From Paracoccus sp. S-4012 (GTDB taxonomy: Bacteria > Pseudomonadota > Alphaproteobacteria > Rhodobacterales > Rhodobacteraceae), in assembly GCF_009674885.1 (NCBI RefSeq), contig NZ_WKKA01000005.1:62001-126000 (forward strand): a DNA stretch of 64,000 nt, read 5' to 3'. Below the pieces are notes generated by a model. It was not told where the DNA came from. It ran no database searches and saw only the letters and a list, made by a program, of their open reading frames with translations. The translations under genes and the position numbers were made by a program. Shown piece after piece: positions 550-26,273 of this stretch (position 1 is the stretch's first letter; every line of letters starts with the position of its first letter).

Positions 550-2898
550 ATGAACGACGCCTCGCCGCTGCCGCTCTCCCTCTCCCGTACCGACGCGGCC
601 CACGCCGAACCGCTGATCTGCTTCTCGCATCTGCGCTGGGACTTCGTGCTGCAACGCCCGCAACACCTGATGCGCCGCTTCGCCAGGGACCGGCGCGTCC
701 TCTACTGGGAGGAGCCGATCCCGACCGAGCATCACCTCGCCTATCTCGAGTTTCACGGCTTCGAGGGCACCACCGTGCAGGCGATCCGCCCGCGCCTGCC
801 GATGCGCTGGTCGCCCGAGGAGCAACAGGCCGCGCTGCCGCGCCTCTACGACCAGATGCTGGCGCTGACGGGCATCCGGCGGCCGGTACTGTGGTTCTAC
901 ACGCCGATGATGTGGCCCATTGCGGCCCATGCCGAGGCCGCCGCCGTGGTCCACGACTGCATGGACGAGCTGAGCGGGTTCCGCTTCGCCCCGCCCGAGC
1001 TGCTGGAGCGCGAGGCCGAGCTTCTGGCCGCCGCCGACGTGGTCTTCACGGGCGGCTGGTCCATCTGGGAGGCCAAGCGCCACCGCCACGACAACATCCA
1101 CGCCTTCCCCTCGAGCGTGGACGCCGCCCATTTCGCCGCCGCCCGACGCGGGTTGCCGGAGCCGGCGGATCAGGCGGGAATACCCGGCCCGCGGCTCGGT
1201 TACTATGGCGTCATCGACGAGCGGCTGGACCTCGACCTGATCCGCGCGGTTGCATCGGCGCGGCCGGGCTGGTCCATCGTCATGGTCGGGCCGCTGGCGA
1301 AGATTTCACAAGCCGACCTGCCGCAGGCGCCGAACCTGCACTGGCTGGGGGGGAAGGATTATGCCGAGCTTCCAGCCTATCTCGCCGGCTGGGATGTGGC
1401 GCTGATGCCGTTTGCGATCAACGACGCCACCCGCTTCATCTCGCCGACCAAGACGCCCGAGTATCTGGCGGGCGGCCGGCCCGTGGTCTCGACGCCGATC
1501 CGCGACGTGCAGCGCCACTATGGCGATCTCGCCGCCGTCCATATCGCCGAGCGCGGCCAGCCCTTCCTCGCCGCCTGCGACGCGGCGATGGCTCAGGCGC
1601 GGCGCCCCGGGGCGTGGCGCGCGGCGGCCGACCGGGCGCTCGCCTCGCTCAGCTGGGACACGACCCATCGCCGCATGGCGGAGCTCGTCTCCGAGGCCGC
1701 CCATCGCCGCATGGAGGCCGCGCCCACGGACCGCTTCCCCGCGCCCGGCATCCGCCGCGGGATGCGCCGCTATGACGTCACCGTCTGCGGCGCCGGTTTC
1801 GCGGGCGCCGTGTTGGCCGAGCGGCTGGCCGAGGCATCTGGTCAGCGGGTGCTGATCGTGGACCGCCGTCCGCATGTGGCGGGCAACGCCTACGACCACC
1901 GCGACGCGGCGGGCATCCTCGTCCACCGCTACGGGCCGCACATCTTTCACACCAACAGCGACGATGTGGTGGCCTATCTCTCGCGCTTCACCTCATGGCG
2001 CCCCTATGAGCACCGGGTGCTGGCGCAGGTCGGCGAGCAGCGGGTGCCGATGCCGATCAACCGCACCACGCTGAATGCGCTCTACGGCCTTTCGATGACC
2101 ACCGACGAGGAGGCCGCTGGGTTCCTCGCCCAGCAGGCCGAGCCGGTGGCGCAGATCCGCACCTCGCGCGACGTGGTGGTGAATGCCGTTGGATCAGCCC
2201 TCTACGAGACCTTCTTCCAAGGCTACACGCGCAAGCAATGGGGCCTCGACCCGAGCGAGCTCGACAAGTCGGTCACGGCGCGGGTGCCGACGCGCACCAG
2301 TGACGACGACCGCTACTTTACCGACAGCTTCCAGGCCATGCCGGCCGAGGGCTTCACGCGCATGTTCGAGCGGATGCTGGACCACCCCCGCATCGACCTC
2401 GCGCTCGGCGTGGACTACCACGACCTGCCCGCCTCCGATCGCGGCCCGCTCACGGTCTACACCGGCCCGATCGACGCCTATTTCGGCCAATGCTTCGGCC
2501 GGTTGCCCTATCGCAGCCTGCATTTCCGCCACGAGACCCACGACTGCCGCCGCTTCCAGGAGGTCGCGGTGGTGAACTATCCGGCCGAGGAGGTGCCCTG
2601 GACGCGGGTGACCGAATACAAGCACCTGACCGGCCAGGTGCATCCCAGGACCTCGATCACCTACGAGTTTCCCGCCGCCGAGGGCGACCCCTATTACCCC
2701 ATCCCGCGGCCCGAGAACCAGGCGCTCTACCGCCGTTACGACGAGCTTGCCGCGCAGCAGAAGGACGTGATCTTCGCCGGGCGGCTGGGGAGTTATCGTT
2801 ACTACAACATGGACCAGGTGGTCGGTCAGGCCTTGGCCACCCACCGCCGCCTCGCGCCGCGCTTCGCTGCCCTTGGCGTGTCCGCCGCTGGGGCCTGA
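550..2898 (+). CDS. Fused glycosyltransferase / UDP-galactopyranose mutase
   Basis: The 782-residue product has two domains. Residues 1-395 are a GT-B-type glycosyltransferase (N-terminal HLRWDFVLQRPQHL, typical of UGM-linked transferases; C-terminal nucleotide-binding half with KTPEYLAGGRPVVSTPI). From residue 408 there is a complete UDP-galactopyranose mutase: the FAD-binding GAGFAGAVLAE, then GNAYDH, YGPHIFHT and the C-terminal GRLGSYRYYNMDQ. The mutase converts UDP-galactopyranose to UDP-galactofuranose, so the fused transferase may use UDP-Galf directly. I took the ATG at 550, preceded by GGAAG; the frame extends to 445 without obvious homology. The gene heads a tight operon. Mutase assignment is firm; acceptor and sugar specificity of the transferase are unknown. 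Confidence 0.85.
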   Translation: MNDASPLPLSLSRTDAAHAEPLICFSHLRWDFVLQRPQHLMRRFARDRRVLYWEEPIPTEHHLAYLEFHGFEGTTVQAIRPRLPMRWSPEEQQAALPRLYDQMLALTGIRRPVLWFYTPMMWPIAAHAEAAAVVHDCMDELSGFRFAPPELLEREAELLAAADVVFTGGWSIWEAKRHRHDNIHAFPSSVDAAHFAAARRGLPEPADQAGIPGPRLGYYGVIDERLDLDLIRAVASARPGWSIVMVGPLAKISQADLPQAPNLHWLGGKDYAELPAYLAGWDVALMPFAINDATRFISPTKTPEYLAGGRPVVSTPIRDVQRHYGDLAAVHIAERGQPFLAACDAAMAQARRPGAWRAAADRALASLSWDTTHRRMAELVSEAAHRRMEAAPTDRFPAPGIRRGMRRYDVTVCGAGFAGAVLAERLAEASGQRVLIVDRRPHVAGNAYDHRDAAGILVHRYGPHIFHTNSDDVVAYLSRFTSWRPYEHRVLAQVGEQRVPMPINRTTLNALYGLSMTTDEEAAGFLAQQAEPVAQIRTSRDVVVNAVGSALYETFFQGYTRKQWGLDPSELDKSVTARVPTRTSDDDRYFTDSFQAMPAEGFTRMFERMLDHPRIDLALGVDYHDLPASDRGPLTVYTGPIDAYFGQCFGRLPYRSLHFRHETHDCRRFQEVAVVNYPAEEVPWTRVTEYKHLTGQVHPRTSITYEFPAAEGDPYYPIPRPENQALYRRYDELAAQQKDVIFAGRLGSYRYYNMDQVVGQALATHRRLAPRFAALGVSAAGA

Positions 2899-2900
2899 CG

Positions 2901-4985
2901 GTGGCGCGACCGCTGCGCCTGCTGCTGGCGACCGACAGCCCCGAGCCGTCCGGGGTGGGCGAGCACATGCTGACGCTCGCGGCCGAACTCGCGCGTGGGG
3001 CGGTGGTCACGCTGGCCTTCTGCGACCACGACGCCGGGCGGCTGCTGGCGCGGCGCGCCGACGGGCTTGGACTGGTGGCGCGGATGGTCGCGGAAGACTG
3101 GTGCGAGGCGATTGCCGCCTGCGCGCCCGACCTCGTCCATGTCCATGCCGGGATCGGCTGGGAGGGGCATCCGCTCACCGCCGCCGCTTCGGCTGCGGGC
3201 GCGGCGGTGGTCAGGACCGAGCATCTGCCGTGGCTGCTGAATGACCCGGCTCAGGTGGCCGAGTATGCGGAGGCTTCCGCCGATGTGGACGCGGTGATCG
3301 CCGTCTCGCGGGCGGCGGGCCTTGGGTGGCGGCGGGCGCTCGCGCCGATGCCGGGGCCGCGCCTGCCGCTCGCCTGCGTGCCGAACGGCATCGCCGCGAC
3401 CCCTCGCCAGCGGCGGCCGGACGGCCCCACCATCCTCTGCGTCGCCCGCTTCACGCCGCAGAAGCTGCACGCGACGCTGCTCTCGGCCTTCGCCCGCCTG
3501 CTGCGGCAGCGTCCCGATGCGCGCCTCATGCTGGTCGGCAACGGCCCGCTCGAACCTGTCCTGCGCCGCCGCGCCGCCCGCCTCGGCATCGCCGATGCCG
3601 TCGCCTTCCTCGGCCGCCGCGACGATGTGCCCGACCTGATGGCGCGGGCCTCGGTCCTCGCCCTCCCCTCCGCCTTCGAGGGGCTGCCGCTGGTCGCGCT
3701 CGAGTCCATGTCGGCGGGCCTGCCCGTCGTCGCCACGCGCATCGGCGGCACGCTTGAGGCGCTCGGCCCCGATCACCCCTGGCTGGTGCCGCAGGGCGAC
3801 GCCCGCGCGCTTGCCGCCGCGCTGGCCGAGGCGCTTGCGGAACCGGATCGCGCAGCCGCCGTTGCGGCGTTGCAGCAGGCGCGGTGGCGGCAGCAATTCA
3901 CCGCCGCGCGCATGGCCGCGGACACCAGACGCATCTACGAGGCCGCCCTGAAGCGGCGCCGGAACGAGGGACCTATGCACCACGTCAGACTGGGCTTCAT
4001 CGGCGCGGGCGGCATCGCCCACCGCCATTTCGGGGTGCTGGAGACCATGCCCGATGTCGAGGTTGTGGCGATTGCCGACCCCGACATCGGCCGGGCCGAG
4101 GACGCCGCCCGCCGCATGAACGCGACACCCTATGCCGACCACGAGGCGATGCTCGCCCGCGAGGACCTCGACGCCGTCTATATCTGCGTCCCCCCCTTCG
4201 CACACGGCGCCCCCGAGCGCGCCTGCATCGCCAGCGGCCTGCCGTTCTTCGTGGAAAAGCCCATCTCGCTCGACCTCGACCTCGCCGAGGAGATCGCGGC
4301 CGAGGTCGAGACCGCGGGCCTTGTCACCGCCGTCGGCTATCACTGGCGCTATCTCGACACGATGGACGAGGCCCGCGCGCATCTGGCGCGCAACCCGGCG
4401 CATCTGATGCAGGGCTTCTGGATCGACCAGACGCCGCCGCCCGAATGGTGGTGGCGCGAGGACCGCTGCGGCGGGCAGGTGGTCGAGCAGGCGACGCATA
4501 TCATCGACGCCGCGCGCTTCCTCGCGGGCGACGTGACCGAGGTCTTCGGCCTCAGCGCCCGCCGCGACCGCGAGGATTTCACGGGCCTGACGGTGCCGAC
4601 CGCCACCGCCGCCACGCTGCGCTTCGCCTCGGGCGCGCTCGCGAACCTCGCCGCGACCTGCCTGCTGCGGTGGAACCACCGCGTCGGCCTGCATGTCTTC
4701 GCCGACGCGCTCGCGCTCGAGATCACCGATTTCGACCTGATGGTGGACACGGGCCAGGGCCGCCCGGTGCGCCGGGCCGAGGGCGATCCCGTCTGGCGCG
4801 AGGACCGCGACTTCGTCGAGGCGGTCATGGGCCGCGAGAACCGCATCCGCTGCCCCTATGCCGAGGCGCTCGAGACGCACCGCGTCGCCCTCGCCATCAG
4901 CCGCTCGGCGCGTGAGGGCGCCCTCGTGAAGATGGAGGGGCTGCGGGCTGACCCGCAGCCCATCTTTCGTGCGGCCCTTGCGTAA
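2901..4985 (+). CDS. Fused GT4 glycosyltransferase / Gfo-Idh-MocA oxidoreductase
   Basis: One open frame of 694 residues starts at GTG 2901, two bases after the preceding stop. Residues 1-350 are a GT4 transferase: HVHAGIGWEG, then VPNGIAATP, ILCVARFTPQK, and the donor-site EGLPLVALESMSAGLPVVAT. Residues 359-694 are a full-length Gfo/Idh/MocA NAD(P)-dependent sugar dehydrogenase with the Rossmann GFIGAGGIAHRHFG, the catalytic-site EKP (FFVEKPISLD) and GYHWRY. There is no stop between the domains. However, residue 359 is an ATG (3975) preceded by GAGGG four bases upstream, so a separate oxidoreductase could also be made by internal initiation. Probably oxidises a sugar, nucleotide sugar or inositol in the same glycan pathway; the substrate is unknown. 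Confidence 0.82.
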   Translation: MARPLRLLLATDSPEPSGVGEHMLTLAAELARGAVVTLAFCDHDAGRLLARRADGLGLVARMVAEDWCEAIAACAPDLVHVHAGIGWEGHPLTAAASAAGAAVVRTEHLPWLLNDPAQVAEYAEASADVDAVIAVSRAAGLGWRRALAPMPGPRLPLACVPNGIAATPRQRRPDGPTILCVARFTPQKLHATLLSAFARLLRQRPDARLMLVGNGPLEPVLRRRAARLGIADAVAFLGRRDDVPDLMARASVLALPSAFEGLPLVALESMSAGLPVVATRIGGTLEALGPDHPWLVPQGDARALAAALAEALAEPDRAAAVAALQQARWRQQFTAARMAADTRRIYEAALKRRRNEGPMHHVRLGFIGAGGIAHRHFGVLETMPDVEVVAIADPDIGRAEDAARRMNATPYADHEAMLAREDLDAVYICVPPFAHGAPERACIASGLPFFVEKPISLDLDLAEEIAAEVETAGLVTAVGYHWRYLDTMDEARAHLARNPAHLMQGFWIDQTPPPEWWWREDRCGGQVVEQATHIIDAARFLAGDVTEVFGLSARRDREDFTGLTVPTATAATLRFASGALANLAATCLLRWNHRVGLHVFADALALEITDFDLMVDTGQGRPVRRAEGDPVWREDRDFVEAVMGRENRIRCPYAEALETHRVALAISRSAREGALVKMEGLRADPQPIFRAALA

Positions 4986-4995
4986 GGCCCCGACA

Positions 4996-6096
4996 GTGCC
5001 GACCGAACACCGCCACATCCGCAGCCTCGGCATCGAGGTCGAGGGCCAGCCGTTCTTCTTCGGCTATGACGAGGGGCCCGCGGGCGACGGGCAGGTGCGC
5101 CTCGACCTGCTCTACACCGGCCTCAGCGCCGGAACGGAACTCACCTTCCTCAAGGGCACCAACCCCTATCTGCACAGCCGCTGGGACGGCGAGCGCGGCG
5201 TCTTCGTGCCGGGCGAGCCCTCGGCCCGCTTCCCGGTCAACTTCCTCGGCTACATGGAGGTCGGCCGCGTCTGCGACTCCCGCGCGGCGGGTTTCCGGCA
5301 GGGGGATGTCGTCGCCTCGACCTTCGGCCACAAGACCGGCCACACCGCGAACCCGGCGCATGACCTGCTGCTGAAGCTGCCCGAGGGAATGGACCCGATG
5401 CTCGGCATCTTCGTCGCGCAGATGGGCCCGATCGCGGCGAACGGCATCCTGCATGCCGATGCCGAGCAGTTCGGCGCCAACGTTCCGCATCTCGGCGCGG
5501 GCGTCGAGGGCCGGCCGGTGCTGGTCTGGGGCGGCGGCACCGTGGGTCTCTTCTGCGCGCTCTTCGCCCGGCGGGGCGGCGCGGCCGAGGTCGTCGTGGT
5601 GGACCCGTCGCCGTTCCGGCAGGACCTTGCGCGGCGCATGGGCTTTCTGGCGATGGGCGAGGAGGAGGCGGTGCATTACGCGAAATCGGCGTGGCACCAC
5701 CGGGTCGGCGGCAGGGGCGCGGAATACGTCTTCCAGACCCGCGCGCGCTCGGACAGCCTGAACCGCGCGCTGCGGGCGCTGAGGCCGCAGGGGACGGTGA
5801 TCGACCTCGCCTTCTATCAGGGGGGCCTCGGCGAGACGCGGCTGGGCGAGGAGTTCCACCACAACGGCCTCTCGATCCGCTGCGCCCAGATCAGCCGCAT
5901 GCCGCGGCCGCTCGCCCATGCCTGGGACCAGCGGCGGCTGGCGGCCGAGACGGTCCGGCTGCTGGAACGCGAGGGCGTGGCGATCCGGCAGCACATGATC
6001 ACCCATGTGGTGCCCTTCGACGAGGCCCCGGACTTCCTGCGCCACCTCGTCGCCGAACGGCCCGAGTTCCTCCAGATCGTGTTCGACGCGACATGA
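4996..6096 (+). CDS. Medium-chain dehydrogenase (MDR) lacking the catalytic zinc cysteine
   Basis: A 366-residue MDR-family protein. It shows the substrate-domain start LDLLYTGLSAGTELTF, the Rossmann segment LVWGGGTVGLFCALFARRG, and a C-terminal helix typical of zinc-binding-dehydrogenase-like proteins. In place of the usual Cys zinc ligand it has 'GLSAGTE', as in BchC-like zinc-independent members, and the structural zinc loop is absent, so it may act without zinc. GTG 4996 (AAGG eight bases upstream) was preferred over an earlier GTG at 4969 that lacks a ribosome site. The gene overlaps the next by ATGA. It is likely to work with the neighbouring Gfo/Idh domain on a sugar; the substrate is not predictable. 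Confidence 0.75.
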   Translation: MPTEHRHIRSLGIEVEGQPFFFGYDEGPAGDGQVRLDLLYTGLSAGTELTFLKGTNPYLHSRWDGERGVFVPGEPSARFPVNFLGYMEVGRVCDSRAAGFRQGDVVASTFGHKTGHTANPAHDLLLKLPEGMDPMLGIFVAQMGPIAANGILHADAEQFGANVPHLGAGVEGRPVLVWGGGTVGLFCALFARRGGAAEVVVVDPSPFRQDLARRMGFLAMGEEEAVHYAKSAWHHRVGGRGAEYVFQTRARSDSLNRALRALRPQGTVIDLAFYQGGLGETRLGEEFHHNGLSIRCAQISRMPRPLAHAWDQRRLAAETVRLLEREGVAIRQHMITHVVPFDEAPDFLRHLVAERPEFLQIVFDAT

Positions 6097-8459
6097 CCCT
6101 CGAACTGGAACAGAACGCGGCGATGCTGACCGAAGCGCCGGAAGCGGGCGCGGAGCCCGCGCATCACGGCGCGCAGGCGACCGAACACGTCTGGGGCACC
6201 ATCCCGCCCGACCACTTCCCGCAGCCGCATCCGGACGCCGGAAAAATCCGCATCCTCTTCGTCTTTGCGTGGCTGGTGGTCGGCGGCGAGGAGACCGAGG
6301 TGCGGCTGCTGGCCCCCAACCTGCCCCGCGAGCGCTACCGCATCGACGTGATCCCCTGCTTCCGCAAGGAGGGGATGCCGGACCAGTCGCACGACCAGCT
6401 GCGCGACCTCGGCATCCACGTGGATACCGCGGCCTACGAGATGAGCTTCGAGGACACGGTCGACTACCTGCGCCGCAGGCTGCCGGGCTATGACGTGGTT
6501 ATCTCCTGTCAGGACGTGGCCGACATCTACCCCGCGCTCGAGCGGCTGAAGCTGCGGCCGCCGCTGATCGAGCATGGCGGGCTCGTGCGCGAGGCGCTGT
6601 CCGGGCCGAAGCACTTCACCGCCCGCTATGTCGGCGTCTGCGACAACATCCGCGAGGCCGCGGCGTCGCGGATGCCCGACCGGCCGCAGCACGCGATCGA
6701 GATTCCGTCGATGGTGGACCTTACGGAGTTCCGGCCGGAAGCGCGCGGTCCGGCGCGGGCGACGCTCGGGGTGGCGCCGGGCGAGGTGCTGATCGGCTGG
6801 GTCGGGCGGCTGGACCGCAAGAAGCGGGTCGAGGATTTCATCGAGGCCGCGGCGGCGGTTGCGGCGAAGGAGGCGAAGGCGCGCTTCGTCGTCGTCGGCG
6901 GGCCGGATGCCTTCATGCCGGAATATGCCGAGGAGTTGCGCGGCCGCGCGGCGGCCCTCGGCCTTGCCGGGCGCCTGATCTTCACCGGCGACCGGCGCGA
7001 CGTGCCCGACCTCATGGCGGCGATGGACGGCTTCTGCTGGCTCAGCCGCGGCGAGGGGATGCCGCATGTCATTGCCGAGGCCGGGGCGGCCCGGCTGCCG
7101 GTGATCGCCACCCCCGACAACGGCGCGCTGCAGCAGATCGTGCACGGCGAGACAGGCCTCTTCGTCCCGCACGAGGACCCCGCCGCCGTCGCCGCCGCCA
7201 TGCTGCGCCTGATCCGCGAGCCGCGCCTGCGCGCCCGCCTCGGCAATGGCCTGCGCGCGCATGTCGAGGCCAGCTACTCGGCCGAGGTCGTCGTCCCGCG
7301 ATGGCAGGCGCTGATCCATGAGGTGCTGGCCGAGGTGCCGCCCGCGCCGCCGCCGAGCCTGTTCCGCAGTTTCGTCCTCGGCGGCTGGGAATGCTCGACC
7401 CACCGCGTCGGCTGGACCCACCACCGCGACCTGCTCGCCGCCACCGGCCACGATGCCCACGCGGCGCAGGACTATCGCCAGCTTGCCTCGCTCGGCATCC
7501 ACGCCTGCCGCGACGGCGCGCGGTGGCACCTGATCGACCGCGGCGGCAGCTACGACTTCTCCAGCCTTACGTCGATGGTCGAGGCCGCGCGGGATACCGG
7601 CACGCAGGTGATCTGGGACCTGCTGCATTACGGCTGGCCCGAGGACATCGACATCTACCGCCCCGACTTCGTCCACCGCTTCGCCCGCTACGCCCGCGCC
7701 GTGGCCGAGCACATCCGCGGCCTGACGGATGAAACCCCCTTCTGGTGCCCGGTCAACGAGATCAGCTTCTTCGCCTGGGCCGGCGGCGATGCGCGCTATC
7801 TCAACCCCTACGGCGCCGGACGCGGCTGGGAGCTGAAATGCCAGCTCGCCCGCGCCTCGATCGCCGCGATGATCGAGCTGCGCGCCGTGGACCCGCGCGC
7901 CCGCTTCGTCCATGCCGAGCCGCTGATCGCCATCCACCACGTCGACTGGACCGGCCGCCCCCGCTGGGAGGCGCAGGGCTGGCACGACGCCCAGTTCCAG
8001 GCCTTCGAGCTGCTGGGCGGCTGGATGTGGCCGCAGATCGGCGGCGATCCCTCGTTCCTCGATATCGTCGGCGTCAACTATTACTGGAACAACCAGTGGA
8101 TCCACGGCGGTCTTCCGGTGGACGTGGACGACGTGATCTACCGCCCGCTCTCGGACCTGCTGGTCGAGGTCGCGGCGCGCTACGGCCGGCCGATGATGAT
8201 CGCCGAGACCGGCACCGAAGGCCCGCGCCGCGGCCCGTGGTTCGACTATGTCGCCGCCGAGACCGTCCGCGCGCGCGCCCGCGGGGTGCCGGTCGAGGGC
8301 ATCTGCCTCTACCCCGTCGCCGACCATCCCGGCTGGGACGACGACCGCATGTGTCCGAACGGCCTCCTCGGTCCCGATCCGCGCGGCGGTGCCCGCGCCG
8401 TCGATCCGGGCCTCGCCGGCGCGCTGCGGCGCTCCGGGCTTGTCGCCACGGCGCGATGA
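6093..8459 (+). CDS. Fused GT4 glycosyltransferase / GH1-like (clan A) glycosidase
   Basis: The 788-residue product begins in an ATGA overlap with the dehydrogenase gene. Residues 50-410 are a GT4 transferase (GWVGRLDRKKRVEDFIEAA; donor motif SRGEGMPHVIAEAG; GETGLFVPHEDP). From about residue 422 a (beta/alpha)8 glycosidase of the GH1 type follows, with the acid/base-like Glu556 in FWCPVNEISFF and a nucleophile-like Glu705 in MMIAETGTEG, plus the loop VGVNYYWNNQWIHGG. Both carboxylates are present, so catalysis is plausible. A GH1-like domain in a biosynthetic operon might trim or transglycosylate the product rather than degrade food sugars. That role is inference. It is the last gene of the operon; GC-rich sequence of 80 bases separates it from the next gene. 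Confidence 0.83.
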   Translation: MTLELEQNAAMLTEAPEAGAEPAHHGAQATEHVWGTIPPDHFPQPHPDAGKIRILFVFAWLVVGGEETEVRLLAPNLPRERYRIDVIPCFRKEGMPDQSHDQLRDLGIHVDTAAYEMSFEDTVDYLRRRLPGYDVVISCQDVADIYPALERLKLRPPLIEHGGLVREALSGPKHFTARYVGVCDNIREAAASRMPDRPQHAIEIPSMVDLTEFRPEARGPARATLGVAPGEVLIGWVGRLDRKKRVEDFIEAAAAVAAKEAKARFVVVGGPDAFMPEYAEELRGRAAALGLAGRLIFTGDRRDVPDLMAAMDGFCWLSRGEGMPHVIAEAGAARLPVIATPDNGALQQIVHGETGLFVPHEDPAAVAAAMLRLIREPRLRARLGNGLRAHVEASYSAEVVVPRWQALIHEVLAEVPPAPPPSLFRSFVLGGWECSTHRVGWTHHRDLLAATGHDAHAAQDYRQLASLGIHACRDGARWHLIDRGGSYDFSSLTSMVEAARDTGTQVIWDLLHYGWPEDIDIYRPDFVHRFARYARAVAEHIRGLTDETPFWCPVNEISFFAWAGGDARYLNPYGAGRGWELKCQLARASIAAMIELRAVDPRARFVHAEPLIAIHHVDWTGRPRWEAQGWHDAQFQAFELLGGWMWPQIGGDPSFLDIVGVNYYWNNQWIHGGLPVDVDDVIYRPLSDLLVEVAARYGRPMMIAETGTEGPRRGPWFDYVAAETVRARARGVPVEGICLYPVADHPGWDDDRMCPNGLLGPDPRGGARAVDPGLAGALRRSGLVATAR

Positions 8460-8540: not shown

Positions 8541-9239
8541 TTGGACCCTGCCATCGACGCCATCGTCCGGCGCGCCGCGATCCTCGAGACCGCGCCGCCC
8601 GCCCTGCAGGATCAGGTGCTGGCCGAAGCGAGCGTGCGGCGCATCGCGGCCGGCTCGACGATTTTCCTGCAGGGGGAGCCCGCGCAGGCGGTGTTCATCC
8701 TGGCCGAGGGCTGGGTCAAGCTCTACCGCGTGACGCCCAGCGGCAACGAGGCCGTGGTGTCGGTCCTGACGCGCGGCCGCAGCTTCGGCGAGGCGGTGGC
8801 GCTGCGCGAGCTGCCCTACCCGCTCTCGGCCGAGGCGATCACCGACGCGACCCTCGTGCGGATCGACGCCGCGCGGCTGCGCCAGAAGATGCAGGAGAAC
8901 CCGCAGATCGCCATCGCGCTGCTGTCGGCGACCTATGTCCACCTTCAGCACCTGCTGAACCAGGTCGAGCAGCTCAAGGCCCGCTCGGGGCTGCAGCGGG
9001 TGGCGATGTTCCTCGCCGACCTCGCCCGCTGCGAGGACGGCGCCTGCGAGGTGACGCTGCCCTACAACAAGGCGCTGATCGCCGGGCGGCTCGGCATGAA
9101 GCCCGAAAGCCTGTCGCGCGCCTTCGCCCGCCTGCGCGAACACGGGGTGCAGATCGACAGCAACACCGCGCGGATCGAGAGCCTCGAGGCGCTGCGCGAC
9201 CTCGCCTCGGACGACCCCGGAAAGGCATGGAGCCGATGA
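8541..9239 (+). CDS. Crp/Fnr family regulator, probably Dnr/NnrR-type
   Basis: A 232-residue protein with an N-terminal cyclic-nucleotide-binding fold (AGSTIFLQGEPAQAVFILAEGWVKLYR, SFGEAVALRE), a long dimer helix and a C-terminal winged helix (LPYNKALIAGRLGMKPESLSRAFARLREHGVQI). The recognition helix core, E-SLSR, is the one that reads TTGAC/TTGAT half-sites. No FNR-type cysteine cluster is visible, which agrees with the NO-sensing Dnr/NnrR branch. I used the TTG start at 8541 with GAGG eight bases upstream. It lies beside the nor and nir genes, whose promoters carry matching Crp/Fnr boxes, so it is the natural candidate activator. Effector assignment is inferred from context. Confidence 0.8.
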   Translation: MDPAIDAIVRRAAILETAPPALQDQVLAEASVRRIAAGSTIFLQGEPAQAVFILAEGWVKLYRVTPSGNEAVVSVLTRGRSFGEAVALRELPYPLSAEAITDATLVRIDAARLRQKMQENPQIAIALLSATYVHLQHLLNQVEQLKARSGLQRVAMFLADLARCEDGACEVTLPYNKALIAGRLGMKPESLSRAFARLREHGVQIDSNTARIESLEALRDLASDDPGKAWSR

Positions 9240-9811
9240 CCCGACTCGAGACCGCCTTCGCCGCCATCGACGCCGCCAACGCCGCCGATCCCCGGCGCGA
9301 GAACAGTGAGCCGGGCGAGTTGCTCTACGGCCGCCGCATGACGCAGGAGCAGGAGCGGATGCATCCCGGCGCCTCCGAGTCGCTCAGGATCGCCTGCCGC
9401 GGGCAGCATATCGAACGCTGGCTGCTGCCGCGGGCCGAGTTTCCGCCGGGCCGCGAGGGCTATCTCGCCTGGCGGCGCGAGCAGGGGCGGCGGCACGCGG
9501 ACCGCGTCATGGGTATCATGCGCGCGGCAGGCTACGGCGAGGCCGAGGCCGAGGCCGCCGGGCGGATGTTGCGCAAGGAGGGAATCAAGCGCGACCCCGA
9601 GGTGCAGGCGCTCGAGGACGTGGCCTGCTTCACCTTCATCCGCCATTATCTGGGCGATTTTGCCAGCACGCAGGACCCCGACGCGCTGCTGAAGATCATT
9701 GAGCGGACCGCGCGGAAGATGTCGCCTGAGGCGCGGGCACGCGCACTCGAGGAGTTCCCGATGCCGGATGCCTTCGCGGAGGCGTTCCGCGCGCTCGAGG
9801 GGGCGCGCTAG
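9236..9811 (+). CDS. DUF4202 domain protein
   Basis: A 191-residue protein covering essentially all of the DUF4202 family: LETAFAAIDAANAADP near the start, ELLYGRRMT, ACRGQHIERWLLPR, YLAWRREQGRRHA, and EVQALEDVACFTFIRHYLGDFA. Conserved His/Arg/Glu residues suggest an all-helical, possibly metal-binding HD-like protein, but no activity is established. Its ATG overlaps the stop of the Crp/Fnr regulator (ATGA), implying translational coupling. It is therefore probably connected to the denitrification regulator or to nitrosative stress, which is inference from neighbours only. It converges on norF with its stop a few bases from that gene's stop. Confidence 0.8.
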   Translation: MTRLETAFAAIDAANAADPRRENSEPGELLYGRRMTQEQERMHPGASESLRIACRGQHIERWLLPRAEFPPGREGYLAWRREQGRRHADRVMGIMRAAGYGEAEAEAAGRMLRKEGIKRDPEVQALEDVACFTFIRHYLGDFASTQDPDALLKIIERTARKMSPEARARALEEFPMPDAFAEAFRALEGAR

Positions 9812-10071
9812 GCGGCGAGATAGAGGCCGAAGGCCACCGCCATCACGAGGCCGAGCGCCAGACCGAAACCGCGCCCCACGGCCGGATAATCCGCGAGGCC
9901 GAGATAGGTGCCAAGGATCACCCGCGCCTTCATCCAGGCAAGGATCAGGATCGCTACCCCTGTCAGCCGCAGCGCGTCGGGCGCGAGGCCGGGCAGGAAG
10001 ATCGCAATGGCGGTGGAGGCGGCCGAGAGGACCAGCAGCCAGATCCAGGCGCGGGTGAGAGGATCGCGCAT
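9808..10071 (-). CDS. norF: NorF-like small membrane protein (cytochrome c oxidase subunit IV-like)
   Basis: An 87-residue integral membrane protein with three hydrophobic segments (about residues 10-27, 33-50 and 66-86), starting MRDPLTRAWIWLL. Size, hydropathy and position as the last nor gene fit NorF, an accessory factor for nitric oxide reductase that belongs to the prokaryotic COX4-like family. NorF is not part of the NorCB core enzyme and its exact role is unclear; loss lowers NO reductase activity in Paracoccus. It starts five bases downstream of the norE stop and its last bases overlap the convergent DUF4202 gene. Confidence 0.75.
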   Translation of the reverse strand: MRDPLTRAWIWLLVLSAASTAIAIFLPGLAPDALRLTGVAILILAWMKARVILGTYLGLADYPAVGRGFGLALGLVMAVAFGLYLAA

Positions 10072-10076
10072 CACCC

Positions 10077-10631
10077 TCACCGCAGCAGGTAGATGATCGG
10101 AAACAGGATCACCCAGACCAGGTCCACCATATGCCAGAACTGCGCCCCGGCCTCGACCTGATCGGGCTTCAGCCGGATCGCCACGAGGGCGAGGACGATC
10201 ACGCCCGCCACGACATGCGCGGCGTGAAAGCCGGTCAGCAGGTAGTAGAAGGTGAAGAAGGCGTGGGTCTCGGTGCCGAGACCCTTGGCGGCGGCGTCGG
10301 CGTATTCGACGCCCTTGAGGATCAGGAACACGATCCCCAGCAGACCCGCCGCAAGGAGGTTCCAACGGGCCGCGCGGTTGCGCCTGGCCTCGGTGTCGCT
10401 CACGGCGCGGGCGGCGAACCAGCCGGAGGTCACGAGGACGGCGGTGTTGATCCCGGCCGAGACGCGATGAAGCTGGTCCTGCGCCGCGGCGAAGCCCGCG
10501 GGGTCCGCGAGGCGCACGGCGAGGAAGGCCAGCAGCCCGGCGCTGAACACCGCGAGTTCGCTGACGATCAGCACCCACATCATCAGGTCGCCCGGCAGCG
10601 GTCGGCGGGCCGGGTCGGCCGCCCCGGTCAC
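10077..10631 (-). CDS. norE: NorE, cytochrome c oxidase subunit III-like protein
   Basis: A 184-residue polytopic membrane protein of the heme-copper oxidase subunit III family. It shows PGDLMMWVLIVSELAVFSAGLLAFL at the start and FYYLLTGFHAAHVVAG and FWHMVDLVWVILFPIIYLLR at the end, both characteristic of the family. It is shorter than true CoxC, as NorE proteins are. Start is the GTG at 10631, whose GTGA overlaps the norD stop; there is no other suitable start. It is an accessory protein of the NO reductase operon. Confidence 0.85.
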   Translation of the reverse strand: MTGAADPARRPLPGDLMMWVLIVSELAVFSAGLLAFLAVRLADPAGFAAAQDQLHRVSAGINTAVLVTSGWFAARAVSDTEARRNRAARWNLLAAGLLGIVFLILKGVEYADAAAKGLGTETHAFFTFYYLLTGFHAAHVVAGVIVLALVAIRLKPDQVEAGAQFWHMVDLVWVILFPIIYLLR

Positions 10632-12544
10632 GCCCCGACCAGCTGGCGGTAGATCTGCGGCAGCGCCTCGGGAAGGCGATCCGGGTCCGCGATCAGCGCA
10701 TGGCCTCCCTGCCCGAAGAGCCGCGGGAACCACGACTTGCCGTCACGATCCACGGCAATGCCGAAGACCGCTTGGCCCGCGCGCCGCGCCTCGCGCACCG
10801 CCATCGCGCTGTCCTCGATGCCGTGGCGGCCCTCGTAATGGTCGAGGTCGTTGGGCTTGCCGTCGGTGATGACGATGAGCAGCCGCCGCTTCTTCGCCTC
10901 CGCCGCGAGGCCCGCCGAGGCATGGCGGATGCCGGCGCCGAGGCGGGTGTAGAAGCAGGGGCGCAGGCCGGCGATGCGGCTCTCGATCGTGGCGCTCATG
11001 GGTTCGTCGAAGCGTTTGCAGGTGGTGACGAAGACCCGCTCGCGGCGCAGGCTGGAAAACGCCTGCACCATCACCCGGTCGCCGCAGGCGTCCAGCCCCC
11101 AGGCGAGGGCCGCAAGCGCCTCGCGCTCGACGTCAATCACCGGGCGGCCCGTCACCGCGCTCTCGGTCGAGCGCGAGATGTCGAGCAGGATCGCCACCGC
11201 GAGGTCGCGCGCCTGCGGGTCGGTGCGCTTCCAGATGCGGTCGCTGCCCTCGCCCGCAACCTTGAGGCCGACCTCGCGGCGGACGGTGGCGTCGAGGTCC
11301 AGCTCGTCGCCGTCGCGGTGGCCGGAGGTCGTCACCCGCCCCGGCCGCAGCGCCTCGAACTGGCGGCGGACGGCGCGGATGCGTCGGCGGGCGCGGGCGT
11401 CGAAGGTGAAATCGCCCAGGCGCTCGGGGTCGATGTCGTTTTCCAGCACGCGGACATGGGCGGGCAGGTACTTGCCCGAGCGCGCCTCCCATTCGGGATA
11501 GGTGAAGACGCCCGCAAGCGCCTCGCGGTCCACGTCCTCGGGCGCGAGGTCGAGATGGACCTTGAGCCGCGTGGCCGGGGCCTTGCTGATCTGGCCGAGA
11601 CCCAGCTCCTCCTGATCGTCGAGCGCCTTCCTCGCATCGTCGTGGTCGTCATCCTCGACCCGGCGGTTGAGGTTGAGGAACTCGGCCCAGCTCAGGATCG
11701 CCTCGAAGCGGCTGATGATGAGGCTGTCGCGCCGCTCGGCCTGATCGCTCTCGCGGCGCTTGGCGCGGACGGTCTTTTCGGGACCCTCGGAGACATCGGG
11801 CGCGCCTTCGGTCTCGCGGCTCTCGACGCGGGTGGCGGCGGAGTGGGTGGAGGTGCCGGTGTGCGGCCAGAGGACCACGGGGCGCATGGCGCGGTAGCCC
11901 TTGGGCGCCTCGCCCGGCGGGTCCGTGGCGAGCGGCGGCAGGGGCGCATCGTCGCCCAGCATGTGACGGACGAGCGCCTCGACCGCCGCCTCGGCCTCGG
12001 GCAGCTTGCCGACCGGCCGCGTCGCGAGGGTCAGGGCGCGCAACTCTTGGTAGAGCGGCGCGAGGCCGGGGGCGGCGTCCAGCGTCGCGTTGATGGTGGC
12101 CTCGACCGCGGCGAGGCGGGCGAGGTCGGCGCGCAGCGGGTCATCCTCGGCCGCCGCCGGCACCGCATGGGCGGCGGCGGCGGCGAGCCAGAGATAGAGC
12201 GCGCCATTCGCCTCGCGCGCGGGCATCACCGCGAGCGAGGCCGGCAGGCGCAGGATCTCGCCGTCGAACTCGGCCTGCGGGGTGACCTCGACCGCGTTGC
12301 CGAGCCGCCGCCGCCAGCTCAGGCGGTGGCGGCTGACGCGGTCGGCGGCGGCGCGGATCTCGACCGAATGGGCGCCGCCGAGGCCGCGGAAGAGGACCGC
12401 GAGGCGGCCCGCGACCTCGGGCAGGTGGACCCGCGCGGTGTCATGGCTTTCGGGCGCGTCGAGGCCCGAGGCCCAGCCGTGCCACAGCTTGCCGACCGAT
12501 TCCTCCGGCTCCCAGAACTCGATCTCGCGCCAGCCCGCCGCCAT
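10628..12544 (-). CDS. norD: NorD, von Willebrand factor A protein for NO reductase activation
   Basis: A 638-residue cytoplasmic protein with a C-terminal VWA domain. The MIDAS metal site appears as DISRS (AILLDISRSTESAV), with the later Thr/Asp positions in RLGAGIRHAS and ITDGKPNDLD. The middle region is Arg/Asp/Glu-rich. With the MoxR-type ATPase NorQ it forms a chaperone pair thought to insert or activate the non-heme iron of NorB. Length and domain order match NorD. It lies 10 bases downstream of norQ and overlaps norE by four bases. Confidence 0.9.
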   Translation of the reverse strand: MAAGWREIEFWEPEESVGKLWHGWASGLDAPESHDTARVHLPEVAGRLAVLFRGLGGAHSVEIRAAADRVSRHRLSWRRRLGNAVEVTPQAEFDGEILRLPASLAVMPAREANGALYLWLAAAAAHAVPAAAEDDPLRADLARLAAVEATINATLDAAPGLAPLYQELRALTLATRPVGKLPEAEAAVEALVRHMLGDDAPLPPLATDPPGEAPKGYRAMRPVVLWPHTGTSTHSAATRVESRETEGAPDVSEGPEKTVRAKRRESDQAERRDSLIISRFEAILSWAEFLNLNRRVEDDDHDDARKALDDQEELGLGQISKAPATRLKVHLDLAPEDVDREALAGVFTYPEWEARSGKYLPAHVRVLENDIDPERLGDFTFDARARRRIRAVRRQFEALRPGRVTTSGHRDGDELDLDATVRREVGLKVAGEGSDRIWKRTDPQARDLAVAILLDISRSTESAVTGRPVIDVEREALAALAWGLDACGDRVMVQAFSSLRRERVFVTTCKRFDEPMSATIESRIAGLRPCFYTRLGAGIRHASAGLAAEAKKRRLLIVITDGKPNDLDHYEGRHGIEDSAMAVREARRAGQAVFGIAVDRDGKSWFPRLFGQGGHALIADPDRLPEALPQIYRQLVGA

Positions 12545-12554
12545 CGCCCCAGCC

Positions 12555-13361
12555 TCAGCCGAAGACCGCGACCACGAGGTCCTGCAAGCCGCGCTTGACC
12601 TCGGCGTCGTCGGTCAGCGGTTCGATCATCGCCGCCTCGATGGCGCGGGGCAGCGCCATGCCGCCCGCGATGAGCGTCGCGGCATAGACCACGAGGCGGG
12701 TCGAAACCCCCTCTTCCAGGTCCTGCCCCTTCAGCGCCCGCAGCTTGCCCGCCAGCCGCACGAGCTGCGCGGCCCGGGCCTGATCCAGCCCGCTCTCCTG
12801 CACCACGATCGCGGTCTCGGCGGCGGGCGCGGGGAAGTCGAACTCCATCGCCAGGAAGCGCTGCCGGGTGGAGGGCTTCAGGGTCTTGAGGATGTTCTGG
12901 TAGCCGGGGTTGTAGCTCGCCACCAGCATGAAGCCAGGCGCGGCCTGCAACTCCTCGCCGGTGCGGTCGATCGGCAGGATGCGCCGGTCGTCGGTCAGCG
13001 GGTGCAGCACCACGGTCACGTCCTTGCGGGCCTCCACCACCTCGTCGAGATAGCAGATCGCCCCCTCGCGCACCGCGCGGGTCAGCGGCCCGTCCACCCA
13101 GACGGTCTCGCCGCCCTTGAGCAGGTAGCGCCCGATCAGGTCGGCGGCCGAGAGGTCGTCGTGGCAGGCGACGGTATAGAGCGGCCGCCCGAGGCGCGCG
13201 GCCATGTGGGTGACGAAGCGGGTCTTGCCGCAGCCGGTCGGGCCTTTCAGCAGAACCGGCAGGTCGTTGGCGGCGGCCGCCTCGAACAGCGCGACCTCGT
13301 CGCCCTGGGGAAGGTAGAAGGGGGCCGAGGCCCCCTCCGTGTCGTTGGTCATGACGTTCAC
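12555..13361 (-). CDS. norQ: NorQ, MoxR-type AAA+ ATPase
   Basis: A 268-residue AAA+ ATPase of the CbbQ/NirQ/NorQ group. Walker A is [11 protein letters not shown], Walker B is GAICYLDEV, sensor 1 is LVASYNPG and the arginine finger region is LKPSTRQRF. It powers NorD-dependent maturation of NO reductase. The frame is open back to a GTG at 13376 that overlaps the norB stop, but the GTG at 13361 has AGGAG seven bases upstream and is the better start; an ATG nine bases further in has no ribosome site. Confidence 0.9.
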
Positions 13362-13372
13362 GTCAGGGCTCC

Positions 13373-14776
13373 TCACTCGGCCGGGGTGGCGCGGGGATCA
13401 TGCGCCTCCTCTTCGATCCTGCGCTGCAGCGGGCCGGGATCGACCACCTCGCTGCGGACGACGAGCACCGAGTAGATGAAGAGCAGCGCGCCCACCACCA
13501 CGGCGACACCCGACCCGAACCGCATCCAGTAGAAAATGAGAAGCTGGTCCTGGACGTCCATGTAGGCCTCGCCGTTCACCCTTTGAAGGTGGGTCTGCAC
13601 GGTGCCGGCGAAGGTCAGCGTGAAGGTCATGAACAGCATGCCGCCCGAGAGCAGCCAGAAGCTGGCCATGTTCAGCACTTGGTTGTAGGGATCGCGGCCC
13701 CGCAGCAGCGGCATCGCATAGGTGACGATCGCCAGCACCAGGCAGACATAGGCGCCGTAGAAGGCCAGGTGGCCGTGCGCCGCCGTGATCTGGGTGCCGT
13801 GGGTGTAGTAGTTCACCCCGTGCAGCGTGTGCATGAAGCCCCAGACCCCGGCGCCGAAGAACGCCAGCACGGTGCAGCCGAGGCTCCACAGCATCGCGGC
13901 CTTGTTCGGGTGGTCGCGGCGGCCCTTCCAGACCATCACGAAGCCGAAGGACATCATGGCGAAGAAGGGCACGACCTCGAAGCTCGAGAAGATCGAGCCG
14001 ATCCACTGCCAGTAGGCCGGCAGGCCGATCCAGAAGTAGTGATGCCCGGTCCCGAGGATGCCCGAGAAGAGGGCCGTCGCGACGATGACATAGAGCCATT
14101 TCTCGACGATCTCGCGGTCCACGCCGGTGAGCTTGAGCATCAGGAACGCGAGGATCGCGGCCATGATGAGCTCCCACACGCCCTCGACCCACAGGTGGAC
14201 GACATACCACCAGTACATCTTGTCCAGCACGATGTTGTGCGGGTTGTAGAAGGCGAAGAGGAACAGCAGCGCCAGACCCCAGAGGCCCATCAGCAGGATG
14301 GTGCTGACCGCGGTCTTGCGGCCCTTGGCTACGGTCATGGTGACGTTCCACAGGAACAGCAGCGCCGCCACGACGATGCCGATCTTGACCCAGGTGGGCT
14401 GCTCGAGGAACTCGCGCCCCTGGGTGCCGAGGAAGTAGTTTCCGTGGAACCAGTTGAAGATGTAGGTCAGCACCGCGCCCAGCGTCCCCACGACGAGGAT
14501 GATGAGCTGCAGATAGGCGATCGCGGGCGAGTGGATCTCGCGCTCGGCCTCCTCGGGCACGAGGAAGTAGGCAGCGCCGAAGAAGCCCAGCAGCAGCCAG
14601 ACGATCAGCGCGTTGGTGTGCAGCATCCGCACGATGTTGAAGGGCGCGATTTCGGCCAGGAAGTTCGGGCGGACATACATGTAGCCCATGGTCAGGCCGA
14701 AGATGACCTGCAGCCCGAAGAGCGCCATCGCCGCAACGAAGTACCAGTAGGCGACGCTTTGGGTGGAGTATTTCAT
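13373..14776 (-). CDS. norB: NorB, cytochrome b subunit of cNOR nitric oxide reductase
   Basis: A 467-residue, 12-helix heme-copper-family protein that reduces 2 NO to N2O in the cytoplasmic membrane. Metal ligands are visible: HTNALIVW near the N-terminus for low-spin heme b, [10 protein letters not shown] for the FeB histidines, and [10 protein letters not shown] for heme b3 and b. The glutamate-rich stretch [14 protein letters not shown] supplies FeB and proton-channel acids. There is no quinol-oxidase N-terminal extension, so this is the cytochrome c-dependent form and partners NorC just upstream (16 bases). Confidence 0.96.
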
Positions 14777-14792
14777 GATGTTCTGTCCCCTC

Positions 14793-15245
14793 TCAGCCGG
14801 CGTCGTTCGGCGGCCAGCCCTGCGTGTCGACCGAGTTCACGAACAGCAGGAAGTCGGCCAGCGCGCGGTATTCGTCGTCCGACAGGTTGAACCCAGGCAT
14901 CTGCCGCCGCCCCTCGATCCCGGTCGGCATCGCGTCCATCCAGGCCTTCAGCGCCTCCATCGCCGCCTCGGGGTCGTCCCGCACGCCCCAGCGCGCCATG
15001 ACGTTGCCGAGTTCGGGGGCGAAGTAGGCGCCCTCGCCCAACAGCGTGTGGCAGTTGATGCAGGCCTTGTTCTCCCACACCAGCTTTCCGGCGGCGACGC
15101 TGTCGGTGAGCATGGCGGGATCGGTCGAGACGTTCCTGGCGTGGAGATGGCTGTGGACGGACAGCGCGCCGAAGATGGCTATGAAGAACAGTGACCCGCC
15201 GTAGAAGACGTTTCGGGCCATGCTCTTGGTCATGACGTCGCTCAT
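14793..15245 (-). CDS. norC: NorC, cytochrome c subunit of nitric oxide reductase
   Basis: A 150-residue membrane-anchored cytochrome c. One transmembrane helix near residues 11-30 (NVFYGGSLFFIAIFGAL) anchors a periplasmic domain with the heme motif CINCH (NKACINCHTLLGEGAYFAPEL) and the axial-Met region RRQMPGFNLS. It passes electrons from soluble cytochrome c or pseudoazurin to NorB. It is the first gene of norCBQDEF. The ATG at 15245 has AAGGA ten bases upstream; a second in-frame ATG four codons later has none. Confidence 0.95.
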   Translation of the reverse strand: MSDVMTKSMARNVFYGGSLFFIAIFGALSVHSHLHARNVSTDPAMLTDSVAAGKLVWENKACINCHTLLGEGAYFAPELGNVMARWGVRDDPEAAMEALKAWMDAMPTGIEGRRQMPGFNLSDDEYRALADFLLFVNSVDTQGWPPNDAG

Positions 15246-15308
15246 GGCGGCGGGTTCCTTCGAGCCGTTGCGTGGATCACGAAATCGCGCGGCGAGCGTG
15301 ACACAGCC

Positions 15309-15322
15309 TTAACGAAAGTCAA
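15309..15322. promoter_or_regulatory. Crp/Fnr-type (Dnr/NnrR) box upstream of norC
   Basis: TTAAC-GAAA-GTCAA on the plus strand (TTGAC-N4-GTTAA reading towards norC). The 5-4-5 dyad matches the Dnr/NnrR site format and is the same as the box upstream of nirS apart from the spacer. Its centre is about 70 bases upstream of the norC start codon. Assigned by pattern, not by an alignment search. Confidence 0.7.
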
Positions 15323-15364
15323 ACCCGGGGTTTTTCTCTCGCCGCGGACTGGGGCAGAGATGCA

Positions 15365-16234
15365 TCATGCGGGCGCCAGCAGCTCGAGCCGCGTGCCGGG
15401 GAAGGCCGCGAGGGCGCGGTCGATCGCGCGCCGGTCCATGACGCAGGCCGCCGTCGAGAGCGCGTCGGCGAGCGCGGCCGAGGGCGCGCTGACGGAGGCG
15501 AGCGACCATCGCGGCGCCCCGCCCCTGGGGTCGAGGATATGCGGCGCGTCGCCCTCGGGGCCGATGCGGGTGCCGAGCGGCGCCGAGGTCGCAAGGGCGC
15601 GGTCGCGCAGCGTGAGCCGGCGCAGCATCCTGCCGTCCGGCGCCGCAATGCCCGCGTCCCAGTCGCGCCCGGTGCCGACGATTTCGCCGGTGTCGATCAG
15701 CACCTCGCCCAGACCATGCCGCAGCGCCACCGCCGCCAGCCGGTCCGCGGCCCAGCCCTGCGCGATCCCGTTCAGCGTCAGCGCCATGCCTGGCCGCGGC
15801 AGCCGGACCTCGGCCTCCGAGACCGACACCGCGGCAAAGCCCAGCAGGGCGCGGTCGGGCGCCCTGCCCTCCCGCACCGCCTGCCAGAGCGGCTGCACCG
15901 TGGGATCGAAGGCGCCGCCGGTCGCATCGTGGACGGCACGGGCGAGGGTCAGCAGGTGCCGGAACTCCGCCGGGGGGCGCGAAAGCCTGCCGATGGCGTT
16001 GAGGCGGCGCAGGTCCGAGCCGCGATAGAGCGAGAAGCGGTCCTCGACCGAGCGCAGCGCGCGGGCCGCCTCCGCGAAGAAGGCGCGGGCGCGGCCCGCC
16101 TCCGCCCCCTCCACCCGCAGCACCACATCCGCGCCGAGGGCCAGGCCGCGCCACTCCCGCCGCGGCACCGCCGCCTGCGCGGGCAGCGCAAGGGCGCAGG
16201 CGCTGAGTGCGAGGAAACGGCGGCGCCCGATCAT
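15365..16234 (-). CDS. nirX: NirX, ApbE-family FAD:protein FMN transferase
   Basis: A 289-residue ApbE/NosX-family protein. It has an arginine-rich Tat-like signal (MIGRRRFLALSACALALPAQA) and the family motifs SVEDRFSLYRGSDLRRLN, GGAFDPTVQPLW, LNGIAQGWAADR, GEVLIDTGEIVGTG and HILDPRGG, with the Mg-binding SAPSAALADALSTA near the end. Such enzymes attach FMN to a threonine of periplasmic flavoproteins. Its likely client is NirI, encoded two genes upstream; a nirI-nirX pair next to nirS is known from Paracoccus. Its start overlaps the nnrS stop (ATGA). Confidence 0.87.
   Translation of the reverse strand: MIGRRRFLALSACALALPAQAAVPRREWRGLALGADVVLRVEGAEAGRARAFFAEAARALRSVEDRFSLYRGSDLRRLNAIGRLSRPPAEFRHLLTLARAVHDATGGAFDPTVQPLWQAVREGRAPDRALLGFAAVSVSEAEVRLPRPGMALTLNGIAQGWAADRLAAVALRHGLGEVLIDTGEIVGTGRDWDAGIAAPDGRMLRRLTLRDRALATSAPLGTRIGPEGDAPHILDPRGGAPRWSLASVSAPSAALADALSTAACVMDRRAIDRALAAFPGTRLELLAPA

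Positions 16235-17420: not shown

Positions 17421-17424
<4 letters not shown>
16231..17424 (-). CDS. nnrS: NnrS family heme/copper membrane protein
   Basis: A 397-residue, roughly 12-helix membrane protein of the NnrS family. The conserved start LWHGHEMIFGFATAALGGFFLTAVPNWTG carries the histidines attributed to metal or heme binding, and later landmarks are ALHILGIGAVGGMTLAVMSRASIGHSGR. NnrS is linked to nitrosative-stress relief and is co-expressed with nir/nor genes under NnrR; it is not an NO reductase. It overlaps nirI upstream and nirX downstream by ATGA at both ends, giving a three-gene operon. Confidence 0.92.
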
Positions 17425-21904
<4,480 letters not shown>

Positions 21905-21922
21905 TCGTTCCGGTTGAAACCC

Positions 21923-21946
21923 GCCGGGGGGCGCCAGCCCCCCGGC
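21923..21946 (+). terminator. GC-rich hairpin between nirS and nirE
   Basis: A perfect 10-bp stem (GCCGGGGGGC / GCCCCCCGGC) with a GCCA loop lies 19 bases after the nirS stop. No T-run follows, so it is more likely a partial terminator or mRNA 3' stabiliser that keeps nirS transcript more abundant than the downstream heme d1 genes than a full stop. Confidence 0.6.
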
Positions 21947-21970
21947 CCACCCCAGACACGGGAGTGACGG

Positions 21971-26263: not shown

Positions 26264-26273
26264 AAGGCGAGCG

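Follow-up and report, generated by a model that had tools for sequence, protein, structure and literature searches.

We analysed a 64,000-nucleotide (nt) stretch of the genome of Paracoccus sp. S-4012 (contig NZ_WKKA01000005.1, positions 62,001 to 126,000; hereafter the window) that carries an array of four genes, here called A to D, at positions 550–8459. Open reading frame and domain analysis placed all four on the plus strand, tightly packed. Gene A (550–2898; 782 amino acids (aa); ATG at 550, stop codon at 2896–2898) is followed after a gap of 2 nt by gene B (2901–4985; 694 aa; GTG start), gene C (4969–6096; 375 aa) overlaps B by 17 nt, and gene D (6093–8459; 788 aa) overlaps the stop codon of C through an ATGA, confirming the initial annotation of four adjacent genes whose ends overlap or abut. 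A contains a glycosyltransferase (GT) domain (approximately 595–1734; PF13692) and a UDP-galactopyranose mutase (UGM) domain (approximately 1750–2895; PF03275 and TIGR00031). Pfam models identified an N-terminal GT4 glycosyltransferase in both B (2901–3950) and D (6093–7337); it is followed in B by a C-terminal Gfo/Idh/MocA dehydrogenase in the same frame (3966–4985) and in D by a divergent glycoside hydrolase (GH) domain of the GH1-type (beta/alpha)8 fold (7362–8459). C (4969–6096) is an MDR-fold dehydrogenase. A sigma-EcfG-type promoter motif, GGAAC-N17-CGTT, lies on the plus strand at 470–495, approximately 55 nt 5' of the ATG of A. The host genome is 3.8 Mb in size, and the best named matches to D belong to P. 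salipaludis (86%) and P. chinensis (85%). A literature search found no title or abstract describing the A–D locus; it is a real, conserved locus of known enzyme families that is apparently undescribed.

Gene order is kept across relatives. Among the 30 loci, out of 78, that match both halves of D (L031–L059 and L086), 26 have C directly upstream of D, and the other four (L052, L057, L058 and L059) lack C beside D. L060, in which the halves of D lie in different genes with C beside the GT half, was left out of the 30. This check of conservation across species, which the initial annotation had proposed, speaks against misassembly and chance, and chance neighbourhood was ruled out for A-B-C-D. 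A further GT gene, Z, is found just upstream of A in 42 of 72 searched stretches, a total that also contains short and duplicate ones; Z, not A, comes first in many Paracoccus-group loci, and in L086 it is placed after the mutase domain. In a plasmid collection, C was detected in 57 records (E ≤ 1e-30), comprising 55 of Rhizobiaceae, one of Aureimonas and one of Nonomuraea, and 39 of the 57 were predicted to be conjugative.

The mutase domain of A scored 261 bits with PF03275 (GLF) and 370 bits with TIGR00031, above the equivalog cut-off of 303.75, and its closest solved structure is a UGM (PDB 3hdq, E = 1.6e-152), the enzyme of Deinococcus radiodurans. This strong match predicts conversion of UDP-galactopyranose (UDP-Galp) to UDP-galactofuranose (UDP-Galf). 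The GT domain of A is borderline in PF13692 (26.8–27.5 bits against a cut-off of 27), and that of D scored 107 bits with GT4. The C-terminal domain of D matched no Pfam model at E ≤ 1, including PF00232, with which a Comamonas homologue scored 21.0 bits against a cut-off of 22.6. Nevertheless, a profile of 44 GH-domain sequences retrieved GH1 glycosidases from the PDB (E = 1e-15), and an AlphaFold2 model (predicted local distance difference test (pLDDT) 93.1) adopted the (beta/alpha)8 GH1-type fold. The best Foldseek match of this model had an E value of 2.4e-18; the 50 matches listed, whose titles, where informative, name GH1-type glycosidases, gave template modelling (TM) scores of 0.69–0.80 at 14–20% identity. 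N132, E133, H89, N239, Y240 and E282 were invariant in 44 of 44 sequences; in line with the GH1 motifs, E133, the Glu that follows an Asn, is taken as the acid/base and E282 as the nucleophile. These six invariant residues, including both catalytic Glu, suggest that the GH domain is probably an active retaining enzyme. The GH1-like label given to D earlier is supported by profile, fold and catalytic Glu; judged solely by Pfam, the domain would not count as GH1.

B combines GT4 (121 bits) with the Gfo/Idh/MocA family, to which it was assigned by PF01408 (87.3 bits) and the C-terminal domain (49.6 bits). C belongs to the MDR family by PF00107 (49.6 bits against 31.8), and its model, of moderate quality (pLDDT 82.4), has the MDR fold (Foldseek E = 1.1e-20); zinc-type alcohol or polyol dehydrogenases predominate among its best matches, which does not indicate its substrate. 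At the zinc positions, placed by the MDR motif, C has A54 in place of the catalytic Cys and Tyr-Met (Y95) in place of His-Glu, invariantly in 13 of 13 sequences. C therefore lacks the Cys and His of a zinc-dependent MDR alcohol dehydrogenase, so that the catalytic zinc Cys is missing, as first described, and the zinc His as well. The signature pattern of zinc-dependent alcohol dehydrogenases is not present in C, and since C of the window has three Cys in all, it is also without the usual structural zinc site. Nor is C a BchC-type dehydrogenase by TIGR01202 (33.9 bits against a cut-off of 291.25). In six loci, from rhizobia, Aureimonas and a Pseudorhodobacter metagenome-assembled genome (MAG), C shares a single frame with Gfo/Idh and a GT, and in Nonomuraea gerenzanensis (L181:7566-13019) a Gfo/Idh-MDR pair related to B and C (48% and 53% identity) is accompanied by a second MDR gene. 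These arrangements suggest that Gfo/Idh and MDR work together on a sugar or cyclitol.

Three of the four genes had been annotated as two-domain fusions. At each junction, the reading frame and a Shine-Dalgarno sequence with a start codon at the second domain were examined, and the same test deeper inside the domain served as the control. Removal of near-duplicates left 39 (A), 40 (B) and 36 (D) loci; the counts before removal were 55, 57 and 36, with the same genomes partly represented twice. These counts exclude loci whose two domains lie on opposite strands (for A, these are L042, L047 and L055), and the broken frames of L056 and L048 were kept unaltered. In-frame fusions were found in 36 of 39 loci for A and in 34 of 36 for D. 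A start of its own was detected at GLF in 2/39 loci (control 2.2) and at the GH domain in 3/36 (control 0.8). The fusions of A and D are thus robust and, as the block is kept across species with its junctions in frame, misassembly or a frameshift was ruled out as their origin. B is likewise in frame in 35 of 40 loci, yet a Shine-Dalgarno sequence and start occur at Gfo/Idh in 35/40 (control 2.2), in the window as a Shine-Dalgarno-like sequence with an ATG at 3975. The halves of B lie in different frames in four of the 40 loci (L034, L036, L142 and L146) and in separate genes in one (L060). The starts suggest that the Gfo/Idh part is probably made also, or only, as a separate protein, which leaves this third fusion doubtful; B may largely be two overlapping cistrons. 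An uninterrupted in-frame junction is nevertheless frequent in B, so that a fused protein may also be made. Substrate channelling is conceivable for A and D.

A search for related protein architectures showed that the A and D fusions are common to relatives and that the domains occur in other combinations elsewhere. Pantoea joins GH, GT and an FAD (flavin adenine dinucleotide) oxidoreductase in one 1242-aa protein, Comamonas has a GH-GT fusion adjoining GLF, Caldilineaceae fuse GH to the GT of B, and in Sphingomonas a GH1-RmlD gene is divergent from GT-GLF. Such re-fusion of related domains argues for a single pathway. GT-GLF together with GH is the minimal set that recurs, and it was found in Azospirillum, two f39 genomes, some Roseomonas-type bacteria, a Bryobacterales MAG and Flavobacterium; at many Roseomonas-type loci, neither GT nor GLF accompanies the GH gene within the stretch searched. 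The Sphingomonas GH1-RmlD protein gave no BLAST match at E ≤ 1e-6 to the GH domain of D, and other plasmid proteins named 'family 1 glycosylhydrolase' match it at 24–31%.

The promoter motif, first noticed in the window, fits the sigma-EcfG pattern GGAAC-N16-18-(C)GTT upstream of A and resembles the motifs given for Rhizobium etli (GGAAC-N16-CGTT; PMC3892343) and Sphingomonas melonis Fr1 (GGAAC-N17-20-GTT; PMC6599016). GGAAC-N17-CGTT has two matches in the window (0.67 expected), the second inside gene B; since one chance match per 64 kb is unremarkable, the weight lies on its position, approximately 55 nt 5' of the operon. The same motif lies approximately 100 nt before the NepR match of the host genome, GGAAC-N17-18-GTT is found approximately 100 nt before NepR in 4/4 Paracoccus genomes examined, the three besides the host having GGAAC-N17-GTT, and NepR was detected in 119 of 121 Paracoccus. 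For the counts at other loci, removal of similar entries reduced 65 rows to 47. Locus numbers defined the 'Paracoccus' group, which also takes in L042 (Falsirhodobacter), L046 (MAG) and L047 (Rhodobacter xinxiangensis), and the 'other' group includes L060, which is not alphaproteobacterial. Among 13 non-redundant non-Paracoccus loci, 10 carry GGAAC-N16-18-GTT upstream of A (0.24 expected). Ahead of Z, it was present in 5/23 Paracoccus-group loci (0.17 expected; two of the five, L042 and L047, are not Paracoccus) and in 2/4 others (0.07 expected). Non-alphaproteobacterial loci had none (0/10 at A, 0/12 at GH). In addition, stress genes (Mn catalase, DUF892, ferritin-like, CsbD, Ku/LigD and OsmC) are located near the block at several loci. 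The initial annotation had recorded neither Z nor the promoter motif nor these neighbours.

Gene order, domains, conservation, the promoter motif and catalytic residues, as observed above, lead us to interpret the operon, with moderate confidence, as a cytosolic, stress-expressed pathway for a galactofuranose (Galf)-containing glycoconjugate. The earlier interpretation is supported in part: one pathway using UDP-Galf appears likely, given the conservation of the block, the fusions elsewhere and the strong UGM match, and oxidised or glycosidase-edited products are conjectural. From these data we infer the reactions, their order, the acceptor, the sugars other than Galf, the product and the stress induction. 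In the proposed pathway, UDP-Galf would be formed from UDP-Galp by the mutase domain of A and used either by the GT fused to it or by an enzyme beside which that GT acts. Further sugars would be attached by the GT4 domains of B and D, together with Z in many relatives. Gfo/Idh and the zinc-less MDR enzyme might act as a pair that oxidises and then re-reduces one position of a sugar or cyclitol, and the GH1-type domain of D would trim the product or, more likely, transfer a glycosyl residue. A general-stress (sigma-EcfG) promoter would drive the operon in rhizobia, Sphingomonas, some Rhodobacterales and this Paracoccus. We favour a lipid-linked or surface product over a soluble one.

Several observations weigh against this reading. 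Coupling to UGM is not constant: in L042, L047 and L055 the GT domain of A is kept with the best GLF match on the opposite strand, GLF was searched for and not found in the stretches L049, L059, L112 and L182, and the FAD protein of Pantoea and Caldilineaceae matches Amino_oxidase, not GLF. The block is accessory, since A was found in 30 of 121 Paracoccus genomes (E ≤ 1e-150) and, wholly or as one half, in 10 of 289 genomes class-wide (E ≤ 1e-100), and full-length D in 3 of 149 sampled genomes of the family. The EcfG motif precedes A in only 2/32 Paracoccus-group loci (the window and L042, Falsirhodobacter) and, among Acetobacteraceae-type loci, was found at none of 10 A and at one of 37 GH genes (0.19 expected). 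Upstream of Z, an Fnr/Nnr-like box, a pattern chosen post hoc, was present in 7/23 Paracoccus-group loci (0.35 expected). A universal EcfG link was therefore rejected, the motif being rare or absent in most Paracoccus-group A and Acetobacteraceae-type loci; this distribution indicates that control differs between lineages, possibly with stress or low oxygen as the shared element. The sole expression data are a lead: the S. melonis study (PMC6599016) lists as EcfG-dependent the consecutively numbered #1750 'Glycosyltransferase' and #1751 'Glycosidases', which may be orthologues of A and GH. Finally, the pathway does not explain a GH1-like domain joined to an acyl-CoA-dehydrogenase-like domain in Deinococcus wulumuqiensis (L177:8911-11283, 790 aa); an acyl-CoA-dehydrogenase annotation recurs at the GH match of several other Deinococcus plasmids.

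Galf is common in O-antigens and galactans, and the operon could instead make a surface polysaccharide or a side chain of lipopolysaccharide or capsule, with the polymerase and exporter encoded elsewhere. In Azospirillum (L179:10128-11894), the GH gene shares 4 nt with a gene for an ABC transporter that has a membrane domain and may export the product. On the other hand, the annotated features beside the block at four plasmid loci, whose tables are incomplete, included no recognisable Wzx/Wzy, initiating phosphoglycosyltransferase or ABC glycan exporter. In agreement with the initial annotation, a Pfam scan of seven window neighbours, the other genes being listed only as frames, revealed no polymerase or glycan exporter next to the block. 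Several loci moreover lie amid stress genes and not in a polysaccharide cluster, and we regard this alternative as somewhat unlikely. The same lack of a recognised exporter nearby would suit a small soluble cytosolic glycoside, a compatible solute or redox buffer mobilised by the GH1 domain. All four proteins look soluble, with no 19-residue window of mean hydropathy above 1.6, and the EcfG-type motif and stress neighbours fit, as trehalose synthesis is EcfG-controlled in S. melonis according to PMC6599016. Named relatives of the Gfo/Idh and MDR enzymes include inositol and scyllo-inosose dehydrogenases, far under cut-off. However, the number of GTs, three or four, is high for a small solute, and no known osmolyte-pathway gene was recognised in the block, which makes such a product unlikely. 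That Gfo/Idh and MDR serve sugar scavenging or catabolism and are merely located within a glycan operon is more improbable still: the Nonomuraea pair does lie close to ABC-importer genes (SBP_bac_1, BPD_transp_1), a ROK protein and an MGH1-like glycoside hydrolase, but C is inside the GT block in 26/30 loci, and both dehydrogenases share one frame with a GT in rhizobia, Aureimonas and the Pseudorhodobacter MAG. Accidental read-through without functional meaning, to which the separate starts, differing frames and separate gene of B would lend themselves, is highly improbable as an account of the fusions in view of the in-frame junctions of A and D, their control-level starts and the recurrence of fusions in other combinations.

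Beyond the cytosolic Galf pathway proposed for the window, the core of GT, UGM and GH1-type domains was seen in Alpha-, Beta- and Gammaproteobacteria, Acidobacteriota, Verrucomicrobiota and Bacteroidota, and Chloroflexota and Pantoea have a different FAD protein in the place of the mutase. Tentatively, this core may be a widespread, repeatedly re-fused module that makes an unknown, usually Galf-containing glycoconjugate for general stress tolerance, in which a GH1 enzyme would act in the cytosol as a biosynthetic transglycosidase and the zinc-less MDR/Gfo-Idh pair would epimerise or oxidise a sugar on the growing conjugate.

Variants of the module were observed at several loci. In G393:C108 and G219:C263, a GH1-RmlD protein is located close to the A match, as if substituting for the GH domain of D. 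In Roseomonas populi (L061:7167-8477 and L061:8773-9879), GH is preceded by a GT-like gene with a weak Glyco_tran_28_C match and, on the opposite strand, by a second GH1 gene; nine Roseomonas-type loci share this arrangement, and Pfam matches were examined for L061. In an Acidobacteriaceae MAG (L071:5853-8015), a PIG-L deacetylase and a GT2 gene adjoin GT-GLF; genes of the L071 clusters are found near the block also in L080 and L089, and in L089 and L099. Flanking-gene clustering was mixed with opposite-strand frames and was replaced by a gene caller based on GC content at third codon positions, itself error-prone. Upstream of A in the window, a divergent Crp-family regulator on the minus strand (2–409, running on upstream of the window; L109:17468-18409) occupies the place that Z has in many relatives, as in L031, L032, L133, L136 and L137. 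Downstream, an apparent denitrification island (8541–27500) begins 82 nt after D and encodes a Crp-type regulator, VWA (NorD-like), COX1-family (NorB-like), cytochrome c and cytochrome d1 proteins, a tetrapyrrole methylase and a radical SAM protein. Its first, Crp-type gene was found beside the block only in L140 among 70 loci, many of them too short to reach it, and the nor/nir cluster was therefore dropped as part of the unit.

Annotation names such as 'glycosyltransferase' and 'family 1 glycosylhydrolase' conceal what may be a glycan pathway carried, as judged by C, on many rhizobial plasmids. If it is a true output of the general stress response, it provides a defined gene set with which to ask which surface, lipid or soluble glycan protects bacteria in soil, plants and nodules. 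The unusual GH1-type enzyme and the zinc-less dehydrogenase are targets for biochemistry.

Among known systems, the pamABCDE Galf transferase/galactan locus of Kingella (PMC12269835) is likewise described for a Galf-containing glycan; the likeness is one of proposed product, and the part of its abstract listed mentions no GH1, Gfo/Idh or MDR partner. GH1 beta-glucosidases (PF00232) have the same fold and two catalytic Glu as the GH domain of D, which, at 365 residues, is shorter than the GH1 chains listed, shares 14–20% identity with them, is fused to a GT and has no recognised signal or membrane segment. The closest parallel in gene arrangement is the 'family 1 glycosylhydrolase' of Sphingomonas, a divergent neighbour of the same GT-GLF fusion with an EcfG-type motif upstream of that fusion; its GH1 domain is fused to an RmlD-like reductase. 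The promoter motif in the window is similar in sequence to those of the sigma-EcfG regulons of S. melonis and R. etli. Finally, the UGM of 3hdq (Glf) matches the domain of A over nearly its whole length, differing in that the mutase of A sits behind a fused glycosyltransferase.

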